Shown: positions 15,071 to 49,733 of the stretch, piece by piece
Position numbering within the stretch: the stretch's first letter is position 1
Layout of the letters: the number at the start of each line of letters is the position of its first letter
Assembly: GCF_032341175.1 (NCBI RefSeq)
Contig: NZ_CP135435.1
Span: 3,906,001-3,970,000, forward strand
Direction: 5' to 3'
From: Bacillus sp. DTU_2020_1000418_1_SI_GHA_SEK_038
GTDB taxonomy: Bacteria > Bacillota > Bacilli > Bacillales > Cytobacillaceae
DNA: 64,000 nt
The notes under the pieces: generated by a model
The model's database searches: none
The model's input: the letters and a program-made list of their open reading frames with translations, nothing else
What the model was told of the DNA's origin: nothing
Program-made: the position numbers and the translations under genes

Positions 15071-15283
15071 TCACACTAGAGAATATTTCCCATGCTGAAC
15101 AACTGTATTTGGCATTTCGTATCCTAAAGCTTTTGCATCCTTACTTGAAATTTCGACTAATACACTATTAGCCCTAACAAGAAACACTTTACCTTCATAT
15201 CTGTTACTTTTTCTCTCAAAAAGAATAATATCCCCTGCATTCGCCCTTTTTTTATCGGAAAATTCACTCTTTTTTTCATGCAT
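15071..15283 (-). CDS. YkvS-like DUF2187 small protein
   Basis: This 70-residue protein matches the DUF2187 (YkvS) family: a polar N-terminus, then a KOW/SH3-like beta core with AGDIILFERKSNRYEGKV and ANSVLVEIS and a C-terminal VVQHGKYSLV. The function is unknown. It lies 133 bp downstream of the riboswitch-controlled 75-codon gene on the same strand and could share its transcript, since no terminator is evident between them. Confidence 0.75.
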   Translation of the reverse strand: MHEKKSEFSDKKRANAGDIILFERKSNRYEGKVFLVRANSVLVEISSKDAKALGYEMPNTVVQHGKYSLV

Positions 15284-15416: not shown

Positions 15417-15644
15417 TCAGACAGCTTCCTTACTTTGTGTTATCATACGAATTGCATATTTAAGATTTTCTAAACATTCTAACCGAATTCTTTCATCGCA
15501 AACAAAATCATATAAAAGTTCTTTTTTGAGTTTTGAAGTAACGACAGATAGAGAATCTTCACTTATTTCTTTTAATTGATTCTCATTCAGATAGTTGTAA
15601 ATTTCTCTTTCAAAGTATTCAACTGTACCAAATAACACAGTCAA
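15417..15644 (-). CDS. Small orphan protein under a c-di-GMP riboswitch
   Basis: I do not recognise this 75-residue protein. It is acidic-to-neutral and mostly helical (YFEREIYNYLNENQLKEISED, then KLKKELLYDFVCDERIRLECLENLKYAIRM), with two cysteines and no membrane segment. It starts at TTG, 8 nt after GGAGGTGG, an unusually strong ribosome-binding site for a rare start codon. It is the first gene after the c-di-GMP-I aptamer and terminator at 15714-15879, so its expression should respond to c-di-GMP. The role is inferred only from that context. Confidence 0.65.
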   Translation of the reverse strand: MTVLFGTVEYFEREIYNYLNENQLKEISEDSLSVVTSKLKKELLYDFVCDERIRLECLENLKYAIRMITQSKEAV

Positions 15645-15713
15645 TTAACATTCCACCTCCATTATAATTTTTTCCATTTACTCAGATAGTCAAAAGATTC
15701 TCTAAAACTACCT

Positions 15714-15744
15714 CAAAAAAAGCCCACCAAAAAGATTGGTGGAC
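15714..15744 (-). terminator. Riboswitch expression-platform terminator
   Basis: A 9-bp minus-strand stem GTCCACCAA/TTGGTGGGC with loop TCTTT is followed by seven Ts. It sits between the c-di-GMP aptamer and the 75-codon gene, as expected for transcriptional control. Confidence 0.85.
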
Positions 15745-15778
15745 TTGTATGATAAAGGCTATTCTATCATAGGTAACA

Positions 15779-15879
15779 GTATCCAATCATTTGGTAACCC
15801 GACGATCATAGCTAATCACCTTAGACTCGTGGCTTTGCGTCCTTATCTTTCAATAAGTTTGCCTTTATCAAACTGATAC
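15779..15879 (-). ncRNA. Cyclic di-GMP-I (GEMM) riboswitch aptamer
   Basis: The minus strand carries the conserved words of the class I c-di-GMP aptamer in order: GATAAAGGCAAAC, GAAAG, GACGCAAAGCCAC, GAGTCTAAGG, GATCGTCGGGTTACC. GTATC and GATAC close the base as P1. Downstream, GCCTTTATC (15751-15759) is complementary to GATAAAGGC in the 5' part of the aptamer (15861-15869), giving a plausible alternative pairing. A terminator follows at 15714-15744. Whether ligand turns expression on or off cannot be decided by eye. Confidence 0.92.
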
Positions 15880-15883
15880 TTTT

Positions 15884-15913
15884 ATAATAAAGCTTTAGCA
15901 TGATAATTTCCAA
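15884..15913 (-). promoter_or_regulatory. Putative sigma-A promoter of the riboswitch transcript
   Basis: On the minus strand TTGGAA, an 18-nt spacer and TATTAT lie directly upstream of the aptamer, so the RNA would begin a few nucleotides before P1. The rest of 15914-16065 is AT-rich with nothing else recognisable. Confidence 0.55.
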
Positions 15914-36119: not shown

Positions 36120-38005
36120 ATCGAGTAGGAGGGAGTAATTAACTCCCGACCTCTCACACCACCGTACGTACGGTCCCGTATACGGCGGTTCAATAACTTG
36201 AGTATCGACGTTGATATAAGTGGTTAAGGTCTTTTAGACCCCATTTAATGAGCGTCTTTATTTTAATTGCATTATGAAGCGTTCCGCAGCCTGAAATCCT
36301 CCAATAACCCTTTCGGGTATTGGCTACTTTACAAGCCTCATCATGTTTGATTCCTAATCTCCTTAGTTGCTGATACCGTGTTTTAACCCTCTTCCATCTT
36401 TTCCATATAATCTGTCTTAATCGATGATTCAACCATTTTGTAACGTCTTCGATAAACCTTTTCATCAAGCTGATTCCATAGTAATTTATCCAACCAACTG
36501 TCGCTTGGTTAATTTCCTTGGCTATTTCCTCAAATTTACCTGGGCGATTCCGTTTTGTTAGATTCTTTAGTTTAGTTTTAAACCTCTTCTTAGCTACTTG
36601 GTGCGGTCTGCAACTAACACCTTTAGAGGTAGTGTGTATACAGAAACCTAGAAATTTCAATTTTGTTGGACTTCCTATTTGACTCTTAGTGCTGTTAACT
36701 GTCAGTTTTAAATCCTTTTCAAGGAAGTAGGTGATACTTTCCATTACACGTTGTCCGGCTCGTTTGCTTTTAACATAGATGCAGAAGTCATCCGCAAAGC
36801 GCACGAATTTGTGTCCACGTCCCTCTAATTCCTTATCTAGTTGATTTAAGTAGATATTACTCAGTATTGGCGAAAGAACGCCACCTTGAGGAGCACCAGA
36901 GTCCGTTGATTTCGTTAGTCCATTTTCAAGGATTCCACTCTTAAGAAATTTCCAGATTAACTTTAGGACTATATTGTCTTGTATAAATATCTTTAGATAT
37001 TCCATCAGCTTTTGGTGATTTATTGTGTCGAAGTAACTCTTTAAGTCACAATCTACAACCACTTTATATCCTTGTTCGTAGTATTTGATGGATTGTTCAA
37101 TAGCTTGATGTTGATTTCTGTTAGGTCTGAATCCATAACTCATTTCCGAGAAATAAGGGTCTATTATCCCACCGATTACTTGATAGATTGCTTGTTGGAC
37201 CATACGGTCCCTTACACATGGTATGCCTAACTTACGTTTAGACCCATCCGGTTTGGGTATTTCAACTCGTTTAACAGGTAAAGGGTTATAAGTGCCATCC
37301 TTCAATTTTCTTTTAAGATATTTGTGGTATTTTTGCACATGACCAAAAAGTTCATCTACTTTCATTCCATCAATTCCGGGTGCACCTTTATTTGCTTTAA
37401 CCTTTTCACAAGCCCTAAGTAGATTTTCGTCATCAATTATCTTGTCAATTAAATCGATACCATCTTGGCGTCCTACTTCTGTATAGACAGAACTACACGC
37501 TTTCGCATACTCTTCAGTTTCCAACCTATCCATTTGCGAATAGCCATCTTTCGATGTATTCTGTGGTCTATGCACTGCCTTTACCTCCGTATTTTCCCAA
37601 GATTGTTATTGTTCAGCCCTTCATTCCGATGGAACTACTATGGCTTCTGCTGACTTCTTACAATTCAGTCTATCATCACTAACAGACTTGTTCCTGTGAG
37701 ATATTCCATCTCTCTTGTCGAGAACCCTTGTAAGACCTCCCCGGGTAAGAGCTATAACCTTCCTCCCATGTAACTGCTATATTTACTGTATAGGATTCGT
37801 GCAGTATTGGACTTTGTTTTGTTATGCAAACTCGTCCGTCCTAATTCAGCCTTATATATAGTTTCTGTCCGTCAGTTCGGGATTTTGCCTCCGGCTTCCT
37901 TCAGATTCCACCTCACGGTGGACACCCTTGCCATTAGCTAACAGTTCCTACTGCCAAGCCTGTAGTGGACTTTCACCACCAAGTTATAGCCCATGCCGGG
38001 CGCAC
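36120..38005 (-). mobile_element. Group IIC intron (Oceanobacillus iheyensis type)
   Basis: The 5' end GTGCGCCCGGCATGGGC at 38005 and the following domain I words (AAGGGTGTCC, GAATCTGAAGGAAGC, GAGTTTGCATAACAAAACAA, TTACCCGGGGAGGTCT) closely match the O. iheyensis group IIC intron as I remember it. Domain V is at 36151-36191 (GAACCGCCGTATACGG...CCGTACGTACGGTGGTG). Domain VI follows, and the 3' end is near 36120 (CTCGAT). The ORF at 36190-37575 is its maturase. The 5' exon is an intrinsic terminator ending TATTTTAT, the known insertion preference of class C introns. Total about 1.9 kb. The element looks complete. Confidence 0.92.
36190..37575 (-). CDS. ltrA: Group II intron reverse transcriptase/maturase
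   Basis: This 461-residue protein carries RT and X domains. RT motifs include IPKPDGSKRKLGIPCVRDRM, the SYGFRPNRN block, DCDLKSYFDTI, GAPQGGVLSPILSNIYLN and the catalytic FADD. The C-terminal maturase domain runs from about 340. No HNH endonuclease with CxxC knuckles follows, as expected for class C. It starts at GTG, 7 nt after GGAGG, and lies in domain IV of the intron. No internal stop is present, so it may be active. Confidence 0.95.
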   Translation of the reverse strand: MHRPQNTSKDGYSQMDRLETEEYAKACSSVYTEVGRQDGIDLIDKIIDDENLLRACEKVKANKGAPGIDGMKVDELFGHVQKYHKYLKRKLKDGTYNPLPVKRVEIPKPDGSKRKLGIPCVRDRMVQQAIYQVIGGIIDPYFSEMSYGFRPNRNQHQAIEQSIKYYEQGYKVVVDCDLKSYFDTINHQKLMEYLKIFIQDNIVLKLIWKFLKSGILENGLTKSTDSGAPQGGVLSPILSNIYLNQLDKELEGRGHKFVRFADDFCIYVKSKRAGQRVMESITYFLEKDLKLTVNSTKSQIGSPTKLKFLGFCIHTTSKGVSCRPHQVAKKRFKTKLKNLTKRNRPGKFEEIAKEINQATVGWINYYGISLMKRFIEDVTKWLNHRLRQIIWKRWKRVKTRYQQLRRLGIKHDEACKVANTRKGYWRISGCGTLHNAIKIKTLIKWGLKDLNHLYQRRYSSY

Positions 38006-38057: not shown

Positions 38058-39068
38058 TTAACGAAGTAATTGTAATACAGCTTGTGGCTGTTGGTTAGCT
38101 TGAGCAAGCATTGCTTGAGAAGCTTGGTTAAGGATGTTGTTTTTAGTGAAATTCATCATTTCTTTCGCCATGTCAACATCACGGATACGAGATTCAGCAG
38201 CTTTTAAATTTTCAGATGAAGTATCTAGATTTTTTATTCTATGTTCTAATCTATTTTGAGCTGCACCTAGTTTAGATCTTTCATCTGAAACTGTTTTAAT
38301 GGCAGCATCTAAACTTGAAATCGCAGCTGATGTGTCAGTTGAAGGTGCCACATTATTACCATTAACAGCCAATCCAGTGGCACTCATATTAGCAATTCCT
38401 AATGTCATAGTCTGACCATTATTTGCTCCTGTTTGGAACGTTCTTTCCCCATCACCAGTTATTTCAATTGCAGTGCTATCTAAACTTGCTGCAACAAAAT
38501 CACTATTCGTTACAATGGTGATATCAAATTGATCAATTCTAATTGTTTGTGCTCCATCAGCCATTTGTTCCACCAGCAATGATTACTTCATTTCCATCAG
38601 CATCTGCAATAACAAAATTAGTACCGCCATCAGTAATAGTATATGTTCCAGCAGCGCCACTTCCAGTGATAGACACAACTCCATCAACAGCTAATGCAGT
38701 TGAAACACTATCATCTAGGTCTACAGAGTTACGAAAATCTCCATTTAATAACTTCATTTTATTAAATTCAGTTTGACTTGAAATATCATTTAATTCAGTT
38801 TTAAGTTGTGTTCTATCTTCATCAGTATAAGTATCAGATGAAGATTGAACAGCTAATTCTCTCATTCTTTGAAGCATTGCATGAGTCTCATTTAGTGCCC
38901 CTTCAGCCGTTTGGATTAAAGAAATTGCATCTTGTGAGTTACGAGATGCTTGATCTAAACCACGTACTTGAGCACGCATTTTTTCAGAGATTGCTAAACC
39001 TGCTACATCGTCACCTGCACGGTTAATGATTTACCAGTAGCGCCAACGTTAATCCCCATCTGACGATG
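38058..39068 (-). pseudogene. Flagellin pseudogene (hag paralogue) with three lesions
   Basis: A flagellin sequence is spread over three frames. From 39068 the minus strand reads [15 protein letters not shown], lacking the first ~12 codons and start. At about 39023 an apparent 28-nt deletion removes the EKLSSGLRI equivalent and shifts frame to [16 protein letters not shown]. At about 38557-38565 one extra base shifts frame again after IIAGGTNG to DGAQTIRIDQF. The C-terminus NILNQASQAMLAQANQQPQA is intact and like that of hag at 41828-42649. No promoter or ribosome-binding site precedes it. It may serve only as a sequence reservoir, or be debris. Confidence 0.93.
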
Positions 39069-39167
39069 AACAACCACTCGTTTTCTACCAAATCTCTCAC
39101 TCTTCTAATTCCCTCAAACCCAGCAGTAGCAAGCAATCCCACAATCCTAGTTGAGCAACATTAGTGC

Positions 39168-39195
39168 AAAAAAATAGAACGGAAAGTTCCGTTCC
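39168..39195 (-). terminator. Terminator downstream of the radC-like gene
   Basis: The minus-strand stem GAACGGA/TCCGTTC is followed by TATTTTTTT. Confidence 0.75.
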
Positions 39196-39252
39196 CAAAA
39201 CATAGAATGCCTCAATAGTTTGGAAGCATAATGCTCAAAAGATAGGTTTCCA

Positions 39253-39360
39253 TTAGAACACCAAATGGTAGACAGACAATACCAAGTAGCTCAAGAGGTT
39301 GGTCTCCCTAACTGTTTGTGACTCTTTTCCATGAAACCCTTCTCTAGTAGCTCTATCCAT
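39253..39360 (-). CDS. Possible 35-codon peptide after radC
   Basis: A 35-residue frame (MDRATREGFHGKESQTVRET then a hydrophobic tail) starts 12 nt after the radC-like stop codon, behind GGGGGAATTGTG. The spacing and the membrane-like C-terminus are suggestive, but there is no homology support. Confidence 0.25.
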   Translation of the reverse strand: MDRATREGFHGKESQTVRETNLLSYLVLSVYHLVF

Positions 39361-39372
39361 CACAATTCCCCC

Positions 39373-39885
39373 TTAGATGTGTCCTTTTTCTTTGAGCGAA
39401 ACAAACTTGTCCTCGCAGATGATCAAATGATCAATCAGTTCAATGCCTAGTATCTTACCAACCTCAGCTAAATGCCTTGTCACTTCCACATCTTCCCTTG
39501 ATTCAGATGGATCTTGACTGGGATGATTGTGCGCTACGATGATCGAAGCAGAATTAGCTAGAATGGCAACTTTCATCACCTCCCTTGGATGTACGAGACT
39601 TGAATTCAATGTTCCTACACTAACCGTATGAATGGCAGTTGGTTGGTTCTTCGTATCTAATGTTAGAAGCATGAGCTGTTCACAATCTGAGTCCACTAGA
39701 AATGACTTTAGCAGCTGGTATGCATCCTCTGGTGACTTAATCTTACGATCCTTGTACAACAAACTTGACTCCCTAACCATCTTTAGACTAACAATGTTCA
39801 CTCGCTTAGCTGGCTCCTGCTTCATTTCCTTTACTACATCAATCAATGGAAACTGTAACTGTGTTCCGTAATCATACCTTCTCAC
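39373..39885 (-). CDS. Short RadC-like JAB/MPN-domain protein
   Basis: The 170 residues carry the JAB (MPN+) domain typical of RadC: metal ligands in AHNHPS and the downstream Asp in SREDVE, plus VGTLNSSLVHPREVMKVAI. The chromosomal RadC is about 220-230 residues with an N-terminal helix-hairpin-helix region; that region is absent here, as in RadC-like proteins of mobile elements. The usual HNHPSGDP has Gln in place of Gly (HNHPSQDP). It starts at GTG, 9 nt after AGGAGG. A conserved hairpin precedes the ribosome-binding site. The actual role of RadC proteins is unsettled. Confidence 0.85.
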   Translation of the reverse strand: MRRYDYGTQLQFPLIDVVKEMKQEPAKRVNIVSLKMVRESSLLYKDRKIKSPEDAYQLLKSFLVDSDCEQLMLLTLDTKNQPTAIHTVSVGTLNSSLVHPREVMKVAILANSASIIVAHNHPSQDPSESREDVEVTRHLAEVGKILGIELIDHLIICEDKFVSLKEKGHI

Positions 39886-39902
39886 CTTAACATTCCTCCT
39901 AA

Positions 39903-39942
39903 AATAAAATAGCCCCTACTCCCACAATGGAAGTAGAGGGTT
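39903..39942 (-). promoter_or_regulatory. Leader hairpin before the radC-like gene
   Basis: On the minus strand CCTCTACTTCC...GGGAGTAGGGG is followed by CTATTTTATTTT and then AGGAGG. It resembles an intrinsic terminator placed just before the ribosome-binding site. The same structure is retained in the leader of the decayed copy (35710-35745). Confidence 0.55.
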
Positions 39943-40105
39943 AGGTCGCTTGTTTCTTGAACATTAGTACTCATAGAACAAACGTACGTCCAATTTTATA
40001 ATATATGTCTGAAGTTTTAGTTGGTACTGTGTGTATCATTACAGTTATTTAGAGCATCAATTACAGGTACATTGGCTTTCGGCAGTGATACTTACTAAAC
40101 ATAAA

Positions 40106-40390
40106 TTACTTCTGAAAACCATTAATTTTTCCGAAATCACCTTTTGCAAAAATCTCAATATCAGCTATATTTAGGACTCTTCTCTGTTCCTTATTAGCAC
40201 TTGAGCAAAATCCAACTATGCGATAACTAAAATCAATGTTTTTTAAAACTATTCTTATTGCTTCAACTGCTTCATCTAGAGTTTCTTTCAGCTCAAAATC
40301 TGAAATACCCGAAACGGCAAAAGGACCAATAATATTAATTGAAGGTTCATATGAGCCATCAATGTATTCAATTTCAATAATCATATCCAT
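40106..40390 (-). CDS. Orphan 94-residue protein
   Basis: I do not recognise this protein. It is a compact alpha/beta-looking sequence (MIIEIEYIDGSYEPSINIIG; FELKETLDEAVEAIRIVLKN; then VLNIADIEIFAKGDFGKI) without membrane segments. The start is the ATG 8 nt after AGGTG; an upstream ATG would add a 25-residue hydrophobic N-terminus without a ribosome-binding site. It lies between the FliB-like gene and the radC-like gene in an accessory block. Small single-domain proteins of this look are often immunity-type proteins, but nothing here supports that specifically. Confidence 0.6.
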   Translation of the reverse strand: MDMIIEIEYIDGSYEPSINIIGPFAVSGISDFELKETLDEAVEAIRIVLKNIDFSYRIVGFCSSANKEQRRVLNIADIEIFAKGDFGKINGFQK

Positions 40391-40496
40391 AGTTTTCACA
40401 CCTACTTTTTTTGCTAATAAAATGAAATACATCATGTTAAAGCTATTTGAAAACTTATCTGTCATTAAATAAAATATTGAAATAAATCAATACGGT

Positions 40497-41726
40497 TTAA
40501 TCTTTAAGTATACTTGCTATATAATCTAAACGTAGTTGGTTATCTTTTTCTAGTAAATCGTAAACTTGTTTTAAGTATTCATGATTATGCTCAATGGTTT
40601 TAGAAAATGATTGTATTGCCTTAATAATTATATCTCTATTTAATTCTTTAAAATGTGAAGCTAACCCTATTAAATGTAATTTTAATAATAGAAAATGTAC
40701 AACCATCATATAATAATTTTTTATAAGGGAAGCCGATTTATCTAATGATAACGGGAATGTATTCTTAAATACATAGTTTACCAAATAGTTTTCCATTATA
40801 TGTTCATTCTTTAACATATAGGGTTGATAATATAGATTATTAATTTCGGTGAACCTCTCAACAAAGTTTTCCACAATTGTGGTTTCATTAAATTCAAAAC
40901 CTTGTACAACTTGTTTTAGAATTTCATAATACCTTGTATTGATATGACTAGCATCTTTTAATTTTTTACTTATTAAATTTAGAAATTTTAGTATAGTAAT
41001 AGAATTTGAAGGTATATCATTTAATGTATCTTCAAAGTGTTTATTAGCGAGTAAATATTCAAATTGCTTTTCTAATAAGTCAACATTATCTAACTGATTT
41101 TTGTTTATTAAAATCTCGATCTCTTGACAAAAAAACCCTAATATAATTAACCTTTCGGATATACTATACTGTCTACTTTGAAGTATCTTAATTGTGAACA
41201 TGCGAATAGCCCAAAAATGTTGCTCTATTGAGACATCTGTTTTTTTTGTTTTTATCTTTTTTCCAACTCTGTTTCTAAAGCCTTTCTCACTTCTTTCTTT
41301 AACATCAAACTCCATTTTATCGGGGTTTAATAGTACTAGACGCGCCATTTCAGGACAAGAAATTGATCCAGACTCTTCAATATAATTATCAACCTCATTA
41401 TAATTTCTCGGATAAATCGCACATGTATTCGAAAGATATGATTCACCAAATTTTAGCTGTATATTACATAACAAATCTTCTGACAACATGGTACAACGAA
41501 TATCATTGTCTAATCTCATATATGCATATACTTCCTCATTCTCACTTTTTTTATCACGAAGTATATTCTTGCTAAGGTTTTTTTTGAAATCTGAATCTTT
41601 TATATTTCGATACTTCTTATAAGTTTTTTTATCAACTGATATTCTCCAACCAGTACAGCAAGTGTCTTCACATTTAGAACCAATACATTGAAATTTCTCC
41701 ATATACTTAGGACTTAAAGTCTGCAT
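40497..41726 (-). CDS. fliB: Flagellin lysine-N-methylase (FliB family)
   Basis: FliB methylates surface lysines of flagellin in Salmonella. The 409-residue protein starts with the family's Cys-rich module FQCIGSKCEDTCCTGWRISV (residues 12-31). Further cysteines follow in RCTMLSEDLLCNIQ and NTCAIYPRNY, and CPEMARLVLL is also conserved. The remaining 260 residues are helical and variable, as in the family. It lies immediately downstream of hag and its terminator, on the same strand, so its likely substrates are the flagellins encoded here. Low G+C relative to neighbours suggests transfer. Confidence 0.88.
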   Translation of the reverse strand: MQTLSPKYMEKFQCIGSKCEDTCCTGWRISVDKKTYKKYRNIKDSDFKKNLSKNILRDKKSENEEVYAYMRLDNDIRCTMLSEDLLCNIQLKFGESYLSNTCAIYPRNYNEVDNYIEESGSISCPEMARLVLLNPDKMEFDVKERSEKGFRNRVGKKIKTKKTDVSIEQHFWAIRMFTIKILQSRQYSISERLIILGFFCQEIEILINKNQLDNVDLLEKQFEYLLANKHFEDTLNDIPSNSITILKFLNLISKKLKDASHINTRYYEILKQVVQGFEFNETTIVENFVERFTEINNLYYQPYMLKNEHIMENYLVNYVFKNTFPLSLDKSASLIKNYYMMVVHFLLLKLHLIGLASHFKELNRDIIIKAIQSFSKTIEHNHEYLKQVYDLLEKDNQLRLDYIASILKD

Positions 41727-41780
41727 TAAAAGAACTCCTTTATTTAGGTTTACGTAATTTTATTAAATAATAAATTATTT

Positions 41781-41817
41781 AAAAAGAGACCTAAAATAAA
41801 ATCCTAGGTCTCTTTTT
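41781..41817 (-). terminator. hag terminator
   Basis: A long minus-strand stem AAAAAGAGACCTA/TAGGTCTCTTTTT immediately follows the hag stop codon. Confidence 0.92.
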
Positions 41818-41827
41818 AAATAAACTA

Positions 41828-42649
41828 TTAACGTAATAATTGTAATACCGCTTGTGGTTGTTGGTTGGCTTGAGCAAGCATAGCCTGTGATGCTTGGTTA
41901 AGAATGTTGTTTTTAGTGAAATTCATCATTTCTTTTGCCATATCAACATCACGAATACGAGATTCTGCAGCTTGTAAATTTTCAGCAGCGTTATCAAGGT
42001 TTTTAATTGTATGTTCTAAACGGTTTTGGTAAGAACCAAGCGTTGAACGAGTAGTAGAAACTAACTTTATAGCTGTATCTACAGCATCAATATCTGTGTC
42101 ATGTTTAGCTTTTGTACCATCAACAGCAACAGCACTTGTAGCAAGGTCTCCTGCAGCACTCAAATTCTTATCTAATTTAAGATTTAATTGTTGAGTTTTA
42201 TTAGCTCCAATTTGAAAATCTTTATCAAATGAACCATTTATTAATTTCTTACCATTGAACTCTGTACGCGTTGAAATACCTGTTAATTCATCATTCAACT
42301 GTGTAATTTCAGCATTAATTGCTGCGATATCATCAGCTTCGAGTGTACCGCCATTTCCACCTTGTACTACTAATTCACGCATACGTTGAAGAATAGCGTG
42401 TTGTTCATTAAGTGCTCCCTCAGCTGTTTGAATGAGAGAGATTGCATCTTGAGAGTTACGAGATGCTTGATCCAAACCACGAATTTGTCCACGCATTTTT
42501 TCAGAAATTGATAGACCAGCAGCATCATCACCAGCACGGTTGATACGAAGACCTGAAGATAATTTCTCCATAGACTTACCTGCTGAATTAATGTTCATGC
42601 CCATCTGACGGTGAGAGTTCATTGCATTTAAATTGTGATTGATAATCAT
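41828..42649 (-). CDS. hag: Flagellin Hag
   Basis: The main filament subunit has 273 residues, close to Bacillus Hag proteins. The N-terminal D0/D1 region (about 1-135) includes MIINHNLNAMNSHRQMGMN and SSGLRINRAGDDAAGLSISE. The short variable centre spans about 135-195. The C-terminal D1/D0 region (about 195-273) ends NNILNQASQAMLAQANQQ and LQLLR. It is preceded by a sigma-D promoter and by a leader with a CsrA-type hairpin. Regulation by CsrA and FliW, encoded just upstream, is expected from B. subtilis. Confidence 0.97.
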   Translation of the reverse strand: MIINHNLNAMNSHRQMGMNINSAGKSMEKLSSGLRINRAGDDAAGLSISEKMRGQIRGLDQASRNSQDAISLIQTAEGALNEQHAILQRMRELVVQGGNGGTLEADDIAAINAEITQLNDELTGISTRTEFNGKKLINGSFDKDFQIGANKTQQLNLKLDKNLSAAGDLATSAVAVDGTKAKHDTDIDAVDTAIKLVSTTRSTLGSYQNRLEHTIKNLDNAAENLQAAESRIRDVDMAKEMMNFTKNNILNQASQAMLAQANQQPQAVLQLLR

Positions 42650-42656
42650 TTAATTT

Positions 42657-42691
42657 TCCTCCTTGAATGTCGTGTTCACGTCCTTGTGAAC
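42657..42691 (-). promoter_or_regulatory. Two predicted CsrA sites in the hag leader
   Basis: On the minus strand GTTCAC-AAGGAC-GTGAAC (42674-42691) forms a 6-bp hairpin exposing AAGGAC, an almost ideal CsrA site. The Shine-Dalgarno AAGGAGG (42658-42664) provides a second GGA. The arrangement is the one described for B. subtilis hag, where CsrA binds BS1 and BS2 and blocks the ribosome. Confidence 0.85.
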
Positions 42692-42745
42692 AATCTTTTT
42701 AGAGAGAAATCTAGGTCGGCCGCCCTATTTTCTCTTACATTCTTT

Positions 42746-42771
42746 TTATCGACAATGTTTTCAATTATTTA
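42746..42771 (-). promoter_or_regulatory. Sigma-D promoter of hag
   Basis: The minus strand shows TAAA, a 14-nt spacer and GTCGATAA, two mismatches from GCCGATAT. The start of transcription would lie about 90 nt before the ATG. Confidence 0.75.
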
Positions 42772-42790
42772 ATAGGTTTTATTAAATATT

Positions 42791-43006
42791 TTATTTATTT
42801 TTTAATATTGTTAGTAAAGAGATGTCTTGTGATGCTTCCTTGTTTTCGGACAGAATTTGTTCATAAATTTCGGTTCTTAATATTTCTACATTTTTAGGAG
42901 CATTAATGCCTATTTTTACTTGGTCATTTTTAGAAGAAACGATCGTTATTTCTATGTCTTCTCCAATTTTTATGGATTCGCCGCTTTTTCTTGTAAGTAC
43001 TAGCAT
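42791..43006 (-). CDS. csrA: Carbon storage regulator CsrA
   Basis: CsrA is a dimeric RNA-binding protein that here should repress hag translation. The 71 residues start [15 protein letters not shown] and include [20 protein letters not shown], the RNA-contact region. It starts 4 nt after the fliW stop codon. In Bacillus CsrA is sequestered by FliW, forming a partner-switch that couples flagellin export to synthesis; both partners and the target leader are present here. Confidence 0.97.
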
Positions 43007-43010
43007 GCTG

Positions 43011-43451
43011 TCACCCCTTGCTCACATATGCTGGAGTGAGTAAATGCTTTGTTTGATAGCTGCTGTCGCTTAAGATCAGCTGTTTGGCATACTTGTTTTT
43101 TTTGTTGAAAATAAGAGGTGCTTGTAGATTGGCCGTTGTTTGATCGAACGGTTCTTGGACTGTAAGAATGACATAAGAGAGCACATCACCATCTGTTTCA
43201 ATTTCTAATTGCTTAATTGAAAGGTCATCAATTGAAAATTGATAGTCTTGGAAAAATTGAAATGGATTTGTGATGACGAATGCAAGGTTTGGTGTTGTAA
43301 CAGATTGCATGATTGAAAAAACATCGTTTTCTGGAAGATTCAAGATAACAAATCGTTTTTCACTTAAGAATCCAGGAATACCTTTTTCAAAATGCCAAAT
43401 TTCCTCTTCACTGATTTCTATTACATCATGATATTTTGTGTCAATGTTCAT
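43011..43451 (-). CDS. fliW: Flagellar assembly factor FliW
   Basis: FliW binds either flagellin or CsrA and thereby releases hag translation when flagellin is low. The 146-residue product begins [20 protein letters not shown], and the FliW core includes [14 protein letters not shown] and [13 protein letters not shown]. The start is the ATG 9 nt after AAAAGGA; an ATG three codons upstream abuts that site. It is adjacent to csrA, as in B. subtilis. Confidence 0.96.
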
Positions 43452-43495
43452 AAGCCACATTCCTTTTTAAGCAATTTTTATACATCCTAACTTAT

Positions 43496-44056
43496 TTATG
43501 GTATGTTCACAACATCGATCTTTAATGAAGGCTGCTGCTTCATTTGGTATGTAATATCGCCTTTTTGATAATCTATCATCGGCTTTCGTGCAACAGTGTT
43601 ATTCACGACTTTTTGGGGCTCCGCCTGTATATCCAAATGACCTGGCTGATAATTGATTTTCACACTGAATGGAGGAGGAGTGAAACCAATATTGTAATTA
43701 TAGTTAAATAACTCACTATTCCGTGCAGCTTGACTTGCAATTGCACCGCCTCCATGCTCAATCCTCATCAACTCGTCTCCCTCTGAAGCAGTTCTTGCAA
43801 TTCCACTTAGGAGGTCATTATATCCCTTTTGGGCATGCTCCTCAATTCTTCGAAAAATATGCTTAATATCCATCGATTCCCAGGCAATCGTTTGATCGAT
43901 TGACAGCTGCCCTTGCGATCTATGAATAATCATTTCTGCTTTTGGCTGCTGTAAATCAAGCTGTGCCTTAGGCTGTTCAATCGTTTGCTGTGCGAGAGTG
44001 CCGGTTATATTAATCTTTGCAAATGCTGACTCCATCCGTATTTGCGGTATCTGCAT
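43496..44056 (-). CDS. yviE: YviE-like DUF6470 protein
   Basis: The 186-residue product matches YviE of B. subtilis: it begins MQIPQIRMESAFAKI and contains repeated Gln/Pro segments (IEQPKAQLDLQQPKAEM). The C-terminal beta-rich stretch includes FSVKINYQPGHLDIQ. The function is unknown; it is conserved between flgL and fliW, so a flagellar role is likely. The start is the ATG 5 nt after GAGGTGA. Confidence 0.88.
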   Translation of the reverse strand: MQIPQIRMESAFAKINITGTLAQQTIEQPKAQLDLQQPKAEMIIHRSQGQLSIDQTIAWESMDIKHIFRRIEEHAQKGYNDLLSGIARTASEGDELMRIEHGGGAIASQAARNSELFNYNYNIGFTPPPFSVKINYQPGHLDIQAEPQKVVNNTVARKPMIDYQKGDITYQMKQQPSLKIDVVNIP

Positions 44057-44106
44057 ACTTGTCACCTCATCATATAGAAAAAGCTATCTAAATAGATAGC
44101 CAATTT

Positions 44107-44991
44107 TTATCTGAGAAAATCCATTAAAGTTGGTTGAATTATACGAGAACCAACTGAAAGTGCTGCACGATGAACACTTTCCTGAGCGAGCAGCTCCGTT
44201 ACGACCTTCTCGAAGTCAATATCTTCATTATCTGACATGACCTTCTTTGAGATGATCTCCTGCTGGTCAATTCTTTCCTCCATTAATTCTACACGATTAG
44301 CACGGGCACCTAGATTGGCGCGCGCATTAGTTACATTGTCTAGGTGACCTTCTATTTTATCTAAATAAGGGCTTATTGAATTACTATCAGAATTAGGATT
44401 TTCTAATGAGAGGATTAGTCCTTCTACATCCTTAAATAAATCCTCAGTAAACACAACTTGCGGATTTACATTAACTGGAATAAAAACACCCTTAGATAGC
44501 TCAAATTGTATCGGATTACTATTATTAGAAACCTTAATTGGTGAAGCACTTGCATCTACTGGTTTACTAAGTGTGTCTGTTCCATTAAAAATATATTTGT
44601 CACCGACTTTTGTGTTGGCAATCTCTACTAAGTGCTCTTTTAATTGCGAGATTTCTTCACTAATTGATTTACGTTGACCTTCATCATATGTATCTGTGCT
44701 TGATTGGACGATGAGCTCACGAATTCGATGAAGAGCCTGACCTGCTTTATCTAGCGAAGCATCGGAATTGTCCATCCAGTTGTAGGCTTCTGAAAAATTC
44801 CTTTTAAACTGTTCTACCTCTTGTAGGTTGCGACGATATGTGACTCCTTTCATCGCAACAACCGGATCATCTGAGGGACGGGATATTTTCTTCTGAGTGT
44901 TCAATTGATCTTGATATTTTCCTAGTCTTTCATAGCTTGTACTTAAATTCGAGAGCATATTTCTTGAAAGCATCGTTTGTGTTACACGCAA
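44107..44991 (-). CDS. flgL: Hook-filament junction protein FlgL
   Basis: FlgL (HAP3) links hook and filament. The 294 residues begin MRVTQTMLSRNMLSNLS, with SYERLGKYQDQLNTQKKISR and PVVAMKGVTYRRNL, typical of FlgL. The flagellin-like C-terminus is ALSVGSRIIQPTLMDFLR. It starts at TTG, 15 bp after flgK, in the flgN-flgK-flgL series. Confidence 0.96.
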   Translation of the reverse strand: MRVTQTMLSRNMLSNLSTSYERLGKYQDQLNTQKKISRPSDDPVVAMKGVTYRRNLQEVEQFKRNFSEAYNWMDNSDASLDKAGQALHRIRELIVQSSTDTYDEGQRKSISEEISQLKEHLVEIANTKVGDKYIFNGTDTLSKPVDASASPIKVSNNSNPIQFELSKGVFIPVNVNPQVVFTEDLFKDVEGLILSLENPNSDSNSISPYLDKIEGHLDNVTNARANLGARANRVELMEERIDQQEIISKKVMSDNEDIDFEKVVTELLAQESVHRAALSVGSRIIQPTLMDFLR

Positions 44992-45006
44992 AGCCTATTC
45001 ACCATC

Positions 45007-46671
45007 CTATCTTCCAACGACACCCATACCGTTGATAATTTTATCAAGCATTTCATCAATGACTGTAATTTGGCGTGCTGATGCATTATATGCATGCTGG
45101 AATTTGATTAAATTCGTCATTTCTTCATCCAAAGAAACAGAGCTTACCGAATTACGGTTATTTTCAACAGATTCTCTAAGAATTGTACTGTTATTCGTTA
45201 GACGATTCGCCTGCATTGACTCTACTCCAAGCTGTCCGATCATTCCTTCGTAGAAGAAATTAAGTGTCCCAGTTTTAACTACACTAAGAGCTTGCAAATC
45301 AATTGTTACATTTGGTAACCCTTCTAGTTCGTGTGCTGTGTTTGTTAAAAGCATATTTGAAATATTAGCTAAGTTAAGGGCATTCTTCCCATCACCAGCA
45401 TCTACACCGATTGGATTTCCATTTTCATCGAATTTCTGCTTAGTTGAAGCAGCGATTTCACTTGGTTTTAAATTCCCAAGGATAATATCTTTTGCAGCGC
45501 CTTTATATTTCGTTAAATCAGTAAAATCAACATTAGAATCTGCTACTGTAGTGAAGAATTTATTCGAGCCCTGATCTCCATCTAAATTATAGCCCTTCGA
45601 ATGAATCTCATTAAAGATATTAGCAAAGGAAAACGCAAGCTTATCTAAATTATCCAGCATATCTGGGTAAGTCCCTTTTATACCAGTCGTAGTTTCATAA
45701 CCATACGATTCTATTAAGGCACGCAGCTTACCAGTTCCAAACGCTATTTCATCAGATGAATCAACAAAATCCATCGTCCCCAGCTGCTGCTTTCCACTAT
45801 CGTCAAATATTGAAATCGTGTTAATTTTATCAGGAGGAACATCATAGGAAAGACCATTACTTCCAGCAAAACCAAGCTGAACATAATCATCAGCAGTCAC
45901 TAGATTTCTCTCTTTACCGTCTGTACCTACGAGCTTAATATTGTATTGTCCCTCTGCGATTTCCTGAGGCTTTCCTCCAGACTTTGTTTTCACAACTCTA
46001 ATATTTAAGTGATTTGATAACTGATCAACCATTAAATCACGCTGATCGTATAAATCATTTGGTAAATAACCATGTGGTTCAATCTCACCAATTTGCTTAT
46101 TCAAGTCAGCAATTTGCTTAAGAAGTGAGTTAATTTCTTTCAGGTTAACACTTACCTCATTCCCTAGGTCATTCTTAATCGTTGTTAAGGAATCATTAAG
46201 GAAATGGAAAGTGTCTGCGACAGCCCTTCCGCGTTCAAGCACAACCTGCCTAGTTCCTTCATTCTCTGGATATGTTGCTAAATCTTGAAGGGATTGCCAA
46301 AACTCACCCATGACGGCTGATAAACCATTGGTGCTTGGTTCATTCACAATGTCTTCCATCTTGCTTAAGGATTTTGCCTTCGATTCCCAATATCCTAGCT
46401 TGTTCTGCTCGTTACGGTATTGAACATCCAGAAACGCCTCACGGATCCGTTGAATCGATCCTGCTTTCACCCCTGTTCCCATTTGTCCAGGAATTTGCGG
46501 TCGGTTTATAGCCGGAGCAGGGAATGGCTCTGTTTGCACGAAATTCACTCTTTGGCGAGAGTAGCCAGGTGTATTAGCATTCGCAATGTTATGTCCTGTT
46601 ACGAATAAGGCGTTTTGTTGTGTAGACATTCCACGCCTTGCCGTTTCCAAACCATGAAAAGTAGAAATCAT
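45007..46671 (-). CDS. flgK: Hook-associated protein FlgK
   Basis: FlgK (HAP1) sits between hook and FlgL. The 554 residues begin MISTFHGLETARRGMSTQQN and contain TGHNIANANTPGYSRQRVNF, the FlgK/flagellar-rod signature. The C-terminus ends HAYNASARQITVIDEMLDKI. The start is the ATG 6 nt after GGAGGT; an ATG one codon upstream is closer to it, and the frame extends further but without a site. It lies 90 bp after flgN. Confidence 0.96.
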   Translation of the reverse strand: MISTFHGLETARRGMSTQQNALFVTGHNIANANTPGYSRQRVNFVQTEPFPAPAINRPQIPGQMGTGVKAGSIQRIREAFLDVQYRNEQNKLGYWESKAKSLSKMEDIVNEPSTNGLSAVMGEFWQSLQDLATYPENEGTRQVVLERGRAVADTFHFLNDSLTTIKNDLGNEVSVNLKEINSLLKQIADLNKQIGEIEPHGYLPNDLYDQRDLMVDQLSNHLNIRVVKTKSGGKPQEIAEGQYNIKLVGTDGKERNLVTADDYVQLGFAGSNGLSYDVPPDKINTISIFDDSGKQQLGTMDFVDSSDEIAFGTGKLRALIESYGYETTTGIKGTYPDMLDNLDKLAFSFANIFNEIHSKGYNLDGDQGSNKFFTTVADSNVDFTDLTKYKGAAKDIILGNLKPSEIAASTKQKFDENGNPIGVDAGDGKNALNLANISNMLLTNTAHELEGLPNVTIDLQALSVVKTGTLNFFYEGMIGQLGVESMQANRLTNNSTILRESVENNRNSVSSVSLDEEMTNLIKFQHAYNASARQITVIDEMLDKIINGMGVVGR

Positions 46672-46761
46672 CATTCTACCTCCAGTTCTACAAATTTTAG
46701 CTTCGCTTGTTTTATTTCTATGGCTTATGCCCACTTTTCTGAAGTAATAGACCCAAAAAGG

Positions 46762-47232
46762 TTAAGCCTTTGAGTCAAATAAGGTCACACTTGGTCTATT
46801 TGCTTCCTCATCCTTGGAATAATTAGTTGGGCTTTCTGGAATAAGTAGATCTATATTTAAAGAGACAAACTGTAGAGATTGCTCTAATAATTGCTGGTTA
46901 AGCTCGTTGATGGTTTTCAATTCAAATAATTGTTCCATCAGGCTTTCTTGGAGAGATTTTATTTGTTCGGCTTCTGCTTTTTCAAATAGAGGCAGACAAT
47001 CCCTCAGTGTCGGGTCTTCATGATCAGGTAATAACTCAGAAATCATCTTTACCCGTTCATCCTCAATCTTTCGAATGGCAATAACATGAGATTGTTCATT
47101 TTTCATTAATGTTTGTAAAGCTTCCAAATCTCCTTTTTTCAAAACTTCTGTTTTTTCAAGAGCAAGCTGATACAGGCTTTTATGGAGCTTTAGTAATTTT
47201 TCTAGCAAAACGAATAATGGCTGGGCCGACAA
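46762..47232 (-). CDS. flgN: Flagellar chaperone FlgN-like protein
   Basis: The 156-residue all-helical protein occupies the position of yvyG (FlgN) before flgK. FlgN chaperones FlgK and FlgL for export. Helical stretches LEKLLKLHKSLYQLALEKTE and QSLMEQLFELKTINELNQQL fit the FlgN fold. It starts at TTG behind GAGGT. Expression is driven by the sigma-D promoter at 47331-47357. Confidence 0.88.
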   Translation of the reverse strand: MSAQPLFVLLEKLLKLHKSLYQLALEKTEVLKKGDLEALQTLMKNEQSHVIAIRKIEDERVKMISELLPDHEDPTLRDCLPLFEKAEAEQIKSLQESLMEQLFELKTINELNQQLLEQSLQFVSLNIDLLIPESPTNYSKDEEANRPSVTLFDSKA

Positions 47233-47280
47233 AGTTACCTCACCTCTCTATGTTAGGCTAACACCCCAAATAGCCAGTTC

Positions 47281-47317
47281 AAAAAATAAAATCAGTACGT
47301 TACTGATTTTATTTTTT
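47281..47317. terminator. 17-bp perfect palindrome between yaaR-like gene and flgN
   Basis: AAAAAATAAAATCAGTA and its exact complement flank the loop CGT. On the minus strand it ends in TTTTTT and would terminate transcripts coming from the yaaR-like gene. It begins within roughly 10 nt of the predicted start site of the flgN sigma-D promoter. Confidence 0.8.
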
Positions 47318-47330
47318 CATCATATTATTA

Positions 47331-47357
47331 TTATCGGTTGAAAAGTGAAGTTCTTTA
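47331..47357 (-). promoter_or_regulatory. Sigma-D promoter of flgN-flgK-flgL
   Basis: The minus strand shows TAAA, a 15-nt spacer and ACCGATAA. The -35 element overlaps the end of the yaaR-like gene. Confidence 0.8.
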
Positions 47358-47792
47358 AGTATAAACGTTAATCAAAAGCCCTTTGATTTCACCAACTAAA
47401 TTTAAAATGTCCAAGCCCTTCTTTTCTTTTTCTAGTACCGCATTTGTTAGATCAAGAAGCTTTTTATCGACTTCCTTCACAATTTTGTATACCTTCGTTC
47501 TCCCGCGCCGATTAAAGCCTCGCTGGTCTTCAAGTTTTAACCCGTTATTTACCGCATCCTCCATAAATTCCTTAACGAGTTTCTTATATTTTTTTAAATC
47601 CTCAATCGTTCTAGATTCAACTAGCAATTTCCCTTGATCTTCGATGTCTTGCATCATCTTTATCATTTTTTCATGAATCAGATTCTCTCGCTTCTTGCCC
47701 ATAACTTCAGTAAATGAAACGGATGCACTTGCAACCTCTTCCTTCTTCTCCATCCGATTCATTCCCGTCTTTGAGACTCTATTGACTTCCAT
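47355..47792 (-). CDS. YaaR-like DUF327 protein
   Basis: The 145-residue product belongs to the DUF327/YaaR family: MEVNRVSKTGMNRMEKKEE, an FTEVMGKKRENL segment and the C-terminal LNLVGEIKGLLINVYT. In B. subtilis yaaR lies elsewhere (near tmk), so this is an extra copy placed in the flagellar block. The function is unknown; related proteins are linked with flagellar genes in some Bacillales. The start is the second of two adjacent ATGs, after GGGTGG. Confidence 0.8.
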   Translation of the reverse strand: MEVNRVSKTGMNRMEKKEEVASASVSFTEVMGKKRENLIHEKMIKMMQDIEDQGKLLVESRTIEDLKKYKKLVKEFMEDAVNNGLKLEDQRGFNRRGRTKVYKIVKEVDKKLLDLTNAVLEKEKKGLDILNLVGEIKGLLINVYT

Positions 47793-47831
47793 CATTACAC
47801 CACCCATGCTTCAATAGTTCCATTTTAAAAG

Positions 47832-47867
47832 AAAAAAGAGGAGAAGCCAACATGACTCACTCCTCTC
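47832..47867 (-). terminator. Terminator of the long-flagellin unit
   Basis: The minus-strand stem AGAGGAG/CTCCTCT is followed by TTTTCTTTT immediately after the flagellin stop codon. Confidence 0.8.
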
Positions 47868-47873
47868 GAACGT

Positions 47874-49733
47874 TTATTTTAATAACTGAAGAATCCCTTG
47901 CGGAAGTTGATTTGCTTGTGCAAGCATCGCTTGACCAGCCTGATTTAAGATGTTATTCCTGGTAAAAGTTGTCATTTCCTCTGCCATATCAAGATCACGT
48001 ATGCGTGATTCTGCAGAGGTTAAGTTTTCATTAGCAGTTTGCAGATTATTTGTTGTATGCTCCAAGCGATTCTGGAATGCACCAAGCTTACTGCGTTCAG
48101 CTGAAACTATTTTAATCGCATTTTCAAATATATTGATTGCGGCACTTGCAGCTGTTTCAGACATAACGTCAACACCTTGAACCGCATTCACTCCAGTAAC
48201 TGTAGGGGATCCGTCAGCATTTCGTCCAATTCCCAAGCTACCCGCATCCATCACTCCTAGCGTAACCCCTAATGTTTCAGAGCTATTAGCACCAATTTGG
48301 AAATTTAGAGTAAGCTCTTTACCTTTGTTGGCTTCGAAGTCGCCGTCAAATAAAGCAATTTCAAGACCATTTGATCCAGAATCGTCAAAAACATCGCTAG
48401 TTTGTGTACGATTAGATGATAGCACGAGCGTTGACCCTACTACATCATGAGAGCTTAGTGCTGTAAGAACGCCATCCACATCATTGTTCTTAATATCGCC
48501 AATTGCACTGTCTATATCTGCTAATATAGTAAAAATATCTTTTCCTTCAATATCAATCGTTAGCGTACCTTCTTGGTTTGGGCTACCGTTAAAGGTATTT
48601 AATGCATCAGGTCCATGAGAATACCCAGCAGAAGCTCCTTTTTTGAATAAGATTGTCAGATTATCAATCTTTAACTGGTCTCCATCCTTAGGTAAATCAG
48701 AGAATGTAAGGTTAAACGAATTTGTATAGTTAGCTGTGTCAGAAGCTACCAAAGAAACTGGAATTGCTTTCACACTTGAATCAACTGGATCTAAAACATT
48801 AACCGTACCAGGTTTACCATCTATTTTTATAGCTTCAGCATCTTTTGGTGACATAGGATTTGTCGTTACAAGCTTAAGAATTCCATTTATGATATTATCA
48901 TCATCAGCGTTAGTAGCATCTTCTGCAGCAGAAGTCTTTACGAACGCTGAAGTGTTGAATGTTCCACTATCATTCTGACCAATAGCCAAAGTCAATTTAT
49001 CTATTAAATTATTGATATTACTGATGGAGTTCCCATCAGTTCCACCATCTTGCCAATCTGCGGTTAAGTCAAGAACAATGTTGCCATTATTAGGAGCTGT
49101 CGCAGTATTATCAGAATAGATCTCGTAAGTTAAATTATTGATTGTAAACGTTTGACCATTAGCTACAGCCTTCGTCTGTTCTCCAAATGCATTTGGAAAC
49201 TCTAATACAATCTCCGCTGGCTCTGTCGGGTCTGCCGTCACAACACCTTTCCAGACCCCATTAGCATCATAAGCAACCTGACTGGAATTTACGTCCGCAA
49301 ATGCACGTCCTTCCGTCGAACCACTAAAGAGCTTCTTCTGGTTAAATTGAGTCGTATCTGCAATTCGATCAATTTCAAATGTTAATTGGTTAATTTCATC
49401 TTGGATGGCTTGTCTATCTTGGGTCTCTAGAGTTCCATTGGCTGCCTGTACAGACAGCTCTCTCATTCTTTGAAGGATGCTATGTACTTCGTTTAGGGCT
49501 CCTTCACCTGTTTGAATAAGAGAAATTGCATCCAAAGTATTTCTTTCAGCCATATCTAAACCACGGATTTGCGAACGCATTTTTTCTGAGATTGCTAGTC
49601 CTGCAGCGTCATCTGAAGCTTTATTAATCCGTAGACCTGATGATAGCTTCTCTAAGCTTTTCGATGTACTGTTCATCGTTTGCGATAAGTTGCGGTATGC
49701 ATTTAATGCTTGTATATTATGATTAATTCTCAT
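47874..49733 (-). CDS. Long flagellin with expanded variable domain
   Basis: This 619-residue flagellin has a standard N-terminal D0/D1 region (about 1-145; MRINHNIQALNAYRNLSQTM, SSGLRINKASDDAAGLAISE) and C-terminal D1/D0 region (about 525-619, ending ILNQAGQAMLAQANQLPQGI). Between them are about 375 residues of beta-rich, Asp/Gly/Asn/Thr-rich sequence, so the surface domain is several times larger than in hag. It starts 3 nt after the adjacent second fliS and probably belongs to the ylqG-ylqH-fliS2 unit. Unlike hag, its ribosome-binding site lies inside the fliS2 end and no CsrA hairpin is present. Confidence 0.95.
   Translation of the reverse strand: MRINHNIQALNAYRNLSQTMNSTSKSLEKLSSGLRINKASDDAAGLAISEKMRSQIRGLDMAERNTLDAISLIQTGEGALNEVHSILQRMRELSVQAANGTLETQDRQAIQDEINQLTFEIDRIADTTQFNQKKLFSGSTEGRAFADVNSSQVAYDANGVWKGVVTADPTEPAEIVLEFPNAFGEQTKAVANGQTFTINNLTYEIYSDNTATAPNNGNIVLDLTADWQDGGTDGNSISNINNLIDKLTLAIGQNDSGTFNTSAFVKTSAAEDATNADDDNIINGILKLVTTNPMSPKDAEAIKIDGKPGTVNVLDPVDSSVKAIPVSLVASDTANYTNSFNLTFSDLPKDGDQLKIDNLTILFKKGASAGYSHGPDALNTFNGSPNQEGTLTIDIEGKDIFTILADIDSAIGDIKNNDVDGVLTALSSHDVVGSTLVLSSNRTQTSDVFDDSGSNGLEIALFDGDFEANKGKELTLNFQIGANSSETLGVTLGVMDAGSLGIGRNADGSPTVTGVNAVQGVDVMSETAASAAINIFENAIKIVSAERSKLGAFQNRLEHTTNNLQTANENLTSAESRIRDLDMAEEMTTFTRNNILNQAGQAMLAQANQLPQGILQLLK

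Follow-up and report, generated by a model that had tools for sequence, protein, structure and literature searches.

Here, we describe a riboswitch-controlled small gene in a 64,000-nucleotide (nt) stretch of DNA from Bacillus sp. DTU_2020_1000418_1_SI_GHA_SEK_038 (contig NZ_CP135435.1, positions 3,906,001 to 3,970,000; hereafter, the window). The explanation that we favor, at somewhat better than even probability, is that an attenuator responding to cyclic di-GMP (c-di-GMP), of the c-di-GMP-I class, controls a small gene that seems to be solitary in most relatives, that the product is a three-helix protein resembling YvfG of Bacillus subtilis, and that the switch is of the ON type in the clade of the window. 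The aptamer, the terminator, the coding gene, the conserved linkage, and the fold match were computed; the switching is what we infer. On the minus strand, the unit consists of a promoter-like site, a full aptamer, a terminator, and a 75-codon gene with a TTG start. This is the order given by an original prediction made from the letters of the window, in which a complete GEMM aptamer, a terminator, and a small TTG-started gene followed one another, and it is confirmed by covariance search, terminator scan, and open reading frame (ORF) analysis. The wider interpretation offered then stands as regards the aptamer, the attenuator, and a conserved linkage; its statements that the product had no known family and that a YkvS-like gene might be a partner are corrected below.

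The aptamer (15790-15873; all features of the unit are on the minus strand) clearly matches the c-di-GMP-I family RF01051 in the covariance search proposed with the original prediction, at 80.1 bits against a gathering cut-off of 35 (expect value (E) 3.9e-14; whole window, all families). The ligand-contacting positions of the class are present (G11, A38, and C80) and are invariant across 30 aligned aptamers. We equate them with the contacts G20, A47, and C92 of Vc2 by a published correspondence (PMC11218506), with C80 set by eye against the published C81. Between the aptamer and the small gene lies an expression platform, an intrinsic terminator of 11 pairs and a T-run (15746-15720). The element thus resembles c-di-GMP-I (GEMM-I) riboswitches in its full aptamer, its retained ligand-contact bases, and the intrinsic terminator in its leader. 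It is predicted to bind c-di-GMP and alter gene expression.

Homologous leaders support the attenuator. We extracted 53, of which 35 (window included) were used for promoter, terminator, and start-codon counts. The promoter-like site ahead of the window aptamer (TTGGAA-18-TATTAT, 15884-15913) is at chance level when taken alone (6 such sites in the scan vs 6.0 expected), but a comparable sigma-70-type promoter lies 5' of the aptamer in 30 of the 35 leaders, against 3.4 (standard deviation 1.8) after letter shuffling. The scan of 1.2 kb gave 2 terminator-like sites, where shuffled sequence gave 0.3. A terminator-like hairpin stands between aptamer and gene in 31/35 leaders, compared with 50/700 letter-shuffled leaders, in a loose scan whose best match in a few leaders (e.g., L037) is not the aptamer-adjacent hairpin. 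The scan gave no terminator-like match in L028, L048, L068, and L069. Control in L068 may be translational, since the aptamer ends 39 nt ahead of the start codon.

The 75-codon ORF (15417-15644) is preceded by GGAGG (15656-15660), its likely ribosome-binding site. Over six close orthologues, the ratio of nonsynonymous to synonymous substitution rates (dN/dS) is 0.38 in frame, and the two shifted frames give 0.93 and 1.34. Thus, the ORF is a gene under purifying selection. Start codons in the 35 leaders are mostly TTG (26), with 7 ATG and 2 GTG. The window protein has no Pfam or NCBIfam match; Pfam matches of 43 aligned family members are weak and scattered, and PHROGs yielded scattered weak matches at most (best E 0.0021).

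Although the product had been assigned to no family, we find distant kinship to B. subtilis YvfG (PF09628) by predicted fold and profile comparison. Its modeled structure takes the YvfG fold, with a three-helix likeness to the solved structures (PDB 2gsv, 2js1, and 9a4s) over the full length. Length and an N-terminal LF..V.YF pattern are also similar. Aligned by hhalign, the two families match over 70 columns (probability 79.7, E 1.5e-5) with a score of 31.0, whereas 17 controls (16 column-shuffled and 1 reversed) scored at most 14.2. The small family nevertheless falls below detection by PF09628: the model matched neither the window protein (E up to 1) nor anything in the window's genome, and it was absent from the matches listed for the 43 aligned members (E up to 0.1; 25 of 26 families). 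YvfG genes also differ in that none of 29 has, on its contig, a c-di-GMP-I aptamer at 20 kb or closer, and they adjoin other genes than the small-family members do. The title of PDB 2js1 describes YvfG as a homodimer. Among the literature matches listed, we found no function for YvfG, and the two crosslinking papers searched in connection with a ferredoxin-YvfG model do not name YvfG in their main text. One weak match to the family profile (L175, LFGTVQYFINSL...), from a locus without an aptamer, looks by eye as if it might stand between the family and YvfG.

A contig scan of genomes gave 35 loci with a match to the small protein. Among whole genomes, 27 of the 36 in the genus have a match at E up to 0.01. 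By profile search (E up to 0.001), 73/193 genomes and 12/25 genera of the GTDB family have a match. A mobile origin was considered and rejected: phage records gave no match to the small protein, and the one Peribacillus plasmid that matches has no annotated gene there.

We show that the pairing of small gene and aptamer is firmly conserved across genera, a check that had been named with the original prediction. Linkage was counted for 82 distinct proteins from fetched loci, leaving out repeat fetches (L080-L086), two shortened or broken genes with an aptamer upstream (L042 and L170), and the weak match L175. With Rfam or a model built from 30 aptamers, a same-strand c-di-GMP-I aptamer was found upstream of 58/82, at distances of 39-939 nt (56/58 within 600 nt; in genomes G164 and G191 the distance exceeds 600 nt). 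By hand count, 56 of the 73 matching genomes carry a linked copy, that of G062 being broken. Genomes of the genus hold only 1 to 10 c-di-GMP-I aptamers in 4 to 6 Mb, so chance placement cannot explain the linkage.

Homologues without an aptamer, which had been named in advance as evidence that would count against the linkage, do exist: 24 of the 82 proteins have none upstream. Seventeen of these fall into two clades, while the other 7 are scattered. One clade consists of 7 proteins of the STVLFGTVEYYE type; the four members examined (L066, L070, L071, and L072) adjoin a gene that we take to be ftsZ and a neighboring gene presumably encoding a LysM protein. The second consists of 10 proteins of another type, all but one from the genus. 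Outside the 82, the genus has 17 more second copies, and G023 has fragments of a broken one; compared by eye with the aptamer list, all of these lie more than 10 kb from any aptamer. The aptamer label is strongly clustered on the tree of the 82 proteins, with 8 changes against 21.0 in shuffles and 0/500 shuffles as low, although many forks are unresolved because the alignment has only 77 columns. We read this pattern as an ancient riboswitch link, followed by losses or by riboswitch-free paralogues.

Some linked loci carry additional elements. L012 has two successive c-di-GMP-I aptamers (1918-2004 and 2763-2846), the first ahead of a CheY-like response regulator (PF00072) and the second ahead of the small gene. 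In the divergent members L168 and L169, a second same-strand aptamer follows ~0.6 kb further on. Read by eye, L037, L039, L041, and L042 have an extra small ORF between the terminator and the small gene, whose product carries two CxxC pairs as well as a basic tail; the extra ORF of L041 had no convincing Pfam match. L031 and L014, titled Chryseobacterium and Paenibacillus, have Mesobacillus-like and C. firmus-like surroundings, respectively, and their titles are probably wrong.

How the switch works was approached by folding. The original prediction proposed simple switching by GCCTTTATC (15759-15751), which is complementary to GATAAAGGC in the 5' strand of the aptamer (15869-15861). This pairing is plausible. 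The duplex has a z score of -2.1 against shuffled linkers, and the anti-aptamer strand that contains it, AGCCUUUAUCAU (15749-15760; partner GAUAAAGGC, 15869-15861), is identical in six close relatives. The proposal is incomplete, as it leaves the terminator untouched and an exclusive antiterminator is needed. When the leader RNA of the window was folded free up to the terminator loop, GAUAAAGGC paired with GCCUUUAUC, so that the terminator could still form. When the aptamer was imposed, GAUUGG (15788-15783), in the candidate antiterminator 5' strand UGAUUGGAUACUG (15777-15789), paired with CCAAUC (15739-15734), ACU paired with AGU, and the UUUAUCAU strand folded back onto AUGAUAGAA. We take the anti-aptamer and antiterminator pairings to be exclusive because they cross each other. 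Imposing the aptamer raised the occupancy of the terminator arm by RNA upstream of it from 0.21 to 0.51, a shift matched by 4/300 shuffled linkers.

We suggest that, in the window clade, GCCUUUAUC would pair with GAUAAAGGC of the aptamer when c-di-GMP is lacking, the downstream terminator would form, and the small gene would be off. Bound c-di-GMP would hold the aptamer together and the GCCUUUAUC strand would be drawn into a local hairpin; GAUUGG could then pair with CCAAUC of the terminator, allowing polymerase to read through. The small protein would be produced at high c-di-GMP. Its small helical fold, as modeled, suggests that it most likely acts through a protein partner to which it binds, and PDB 9a4s makes ferredoxin the first candidate. 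The other window-clade leaders modeled (L009, L011, and L012) all shift in the ON direction. Their folds agree with that of the window. We favor an ON switch in this clade, with moderate confidence; models of other clades disagree on the direction.

Other results qualify this mechanism. Among 26 modeled leaders, 6 shift toward ON, 7 shift the opposite way, and 13 do neither; no universal ON or OFF rule was found. The GAUUGG:CCAAUC duplex is energetically no better than those of shuffles. Covariation between the post-aptamer segment and the terminator arm, examined for one pair, gave no support: a canonical pair occurs in 8/19 distinct leaders vs 6.7 expected, and 1438/5000 shuffles were as good (23/53 leaders went unscored for lack of an identifiable motif, and some anchors were misplaced). 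Of 32 leaders, 6 have an anti-aptamer duplex that stands out. Complementarity to the aptamer 3' strand or to the terminator arm was also considered, and 0/32 leaders reached z < -2 for either.

The same parts could also form an OFF switch, in which the bound aptamer closes P1 and takes up the segment just downstream; the terminator would then form, restricting the protein to low c-di-GMP, in the motile state. Seven of the 26 modeled leaders shift by >0.1 in this direction, most strongly in the C. firmus group (L014 and L018), and GUAUC in the 5' flank of the window could by eye pair with GAUAC at +8 to +12. We nevertheless consider an OFF switch unlikely for the window, as its leader and the three other leaders modeled from its clade shift the opposite way, and the GCCUUUAUC:GAUAAAGGC pairing is hard to reconcile with it.

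Studied riboswitches of the class offer precedents for more than one outcome. The nearest are Bc2-cap and Bc1-mcpE of Bacillus thuringiensis, whose targets are an adhesin or chemoreceptor, whereas here the target is a tiny protein without a Pfam or NCBIfam model. Bc2 is a tested c-di-GMP-I ON switch acting by antitermination (PMC4933901), Bc3-5 are described as being switched on by ligand (PMC4759541), and Bc1 binds ligand with no output (PMC11218506). By analogy with Bc1-mcpE, the window aptamer could bind c-di-GMP while the gene stays unresponsive in the cell. A promoter-like site downstream of the terminator (15693-15664) would fit such uncoupling, but it is at chance level (6 vs 6.0 expected) and is not seen by eye in L008. 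Aptamer and terminator have, moreover, been retained across genera despite diverging linkers, and we judge an unresponsive gene to be improbable.

The favored reading, with the small gene as the target, also has to be set against its downstream neighbor, a DUF2187 (YkvS-like) gene (15071-15283; PF09953, E 8.1e-13). It starts 133 nt past the small gene with no terminator-like site between them, and is perhaps transcribed by read-through. If it were the true target, the small ORF would be incidental. DUF2187 does adjoin the small gene in the close relatives L009, L011, and L046, with a partial piece in L012, but the other aptamer-bearing loci searched had no full DUF2187 gene (tblastn, E 1e-4). 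Neighbors vary between genera, whereas the small ORF is conserved as a protein; that DUF2187 is the real target is thus very improbable. Since it is found beside the small gene in only a few close relatives, it is not a general part of the unit, and the partnership suggested by the original prediction is confined to these relatives. The unit is flanked on its other side by a gene with a PDZ-like domain (below the Pfam cut-off). Even among close relatives the unit has varying surroundings: none of the window's other neighbors was found within 3 kb in L008-L011. Conserved neighbors are ruled out as a functional clue, as they differ between genera.

The window's genome (4.47 Mb) has 7 c-di-GMP-I aptamers, 11 GGDEF matches, and 4 Flagellin_N matches, the last in agreement with the motile host that had been predicted. 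All four Flagellin_N matches lie inside the window (38737-49727, minus strand), at a distance of 23-34 kb from the riboswitch. The window also carries group II intron RNA domains (RF02001, RF01998, and RF00029) at 36120-37922 (minus strand). Of the other aptamers in this genome, one (L075) lies ahead of a GGDEF gene with a GGDEF-EAL-PilZ gene behind it, one (L076) ahead of a 126-residue ORF that EAL and chemoreceptor genes follow, and one (L078) ahead of a PAS histidine kinase. Riboswitch-associated ORFs without a Pfam match are present in L074 (6685-6849 and 6271-6606, minus strand; 54 and 111 residues) and L076 (3017-3397, plus strand; 126 residues), and these short ORFs are possible further c-di-GMP outputs.

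One member's riboswitch is probably already in print. RNA sequencing and Rfam searches of Bacillus methanolicus MGA3 gave four c-di-GMP riboswitches, one before BMMGA3_15625, of “unknown function” (PMC4342826). We find five c-di-GMP-I aptamers in G061, which we take to be this genome. Two of them, at 3.060 and 3.116 Mb, agree with tags 15380 and 15625 in both order and spacing, and the one at 3.116 Mb lies ahead of family member L147. By position, BMMGA3_15625 is very probably L147. In the accessible text of that paper, it is a single case without family, fold, or conservation. Apart from this entry, the literature matches listed held no account of the small family, its conservation, or its YvfG kinship. 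The same paper lists a c-di-GMP riboswitch before sinI, probably the G061 aptamer at 1.686 Mb (L178), by position; this is another small regulator behind the same kind of switch. The riboswitch class is thus known, and the target family is new, with a distant solved relative.

To our knowledge, Gram-positive bacteria have few c-di-GMP outputs, and little is known about them. We infer that the small protein is a c-di-GMP effector. It is probably a real output of the signal, as the pairing with the aptamer has been kept across many species. More tentatively, and with a little less than even probability, we propose that this undescribed small YvfG-fold family is a dedicated c-di-GMP output in many Bacillaceae, carried as a stand-alone promoter-attenuator-gene unit in changing surroundings. 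Its product would bind and redirect a partner at high c-di-GMP, and the riboswitch-free paralogues, among them a clade some of whose members adjoin an ftsZ-like gene, may act on the same kind of partner but free of this control. That the gene family has retained its riboswitch across genera argues strongly, on genetic grounds, that it belongs to the c-di-GMP pathway, and the family offers a way to approach YvfG, whose structure has been solved.
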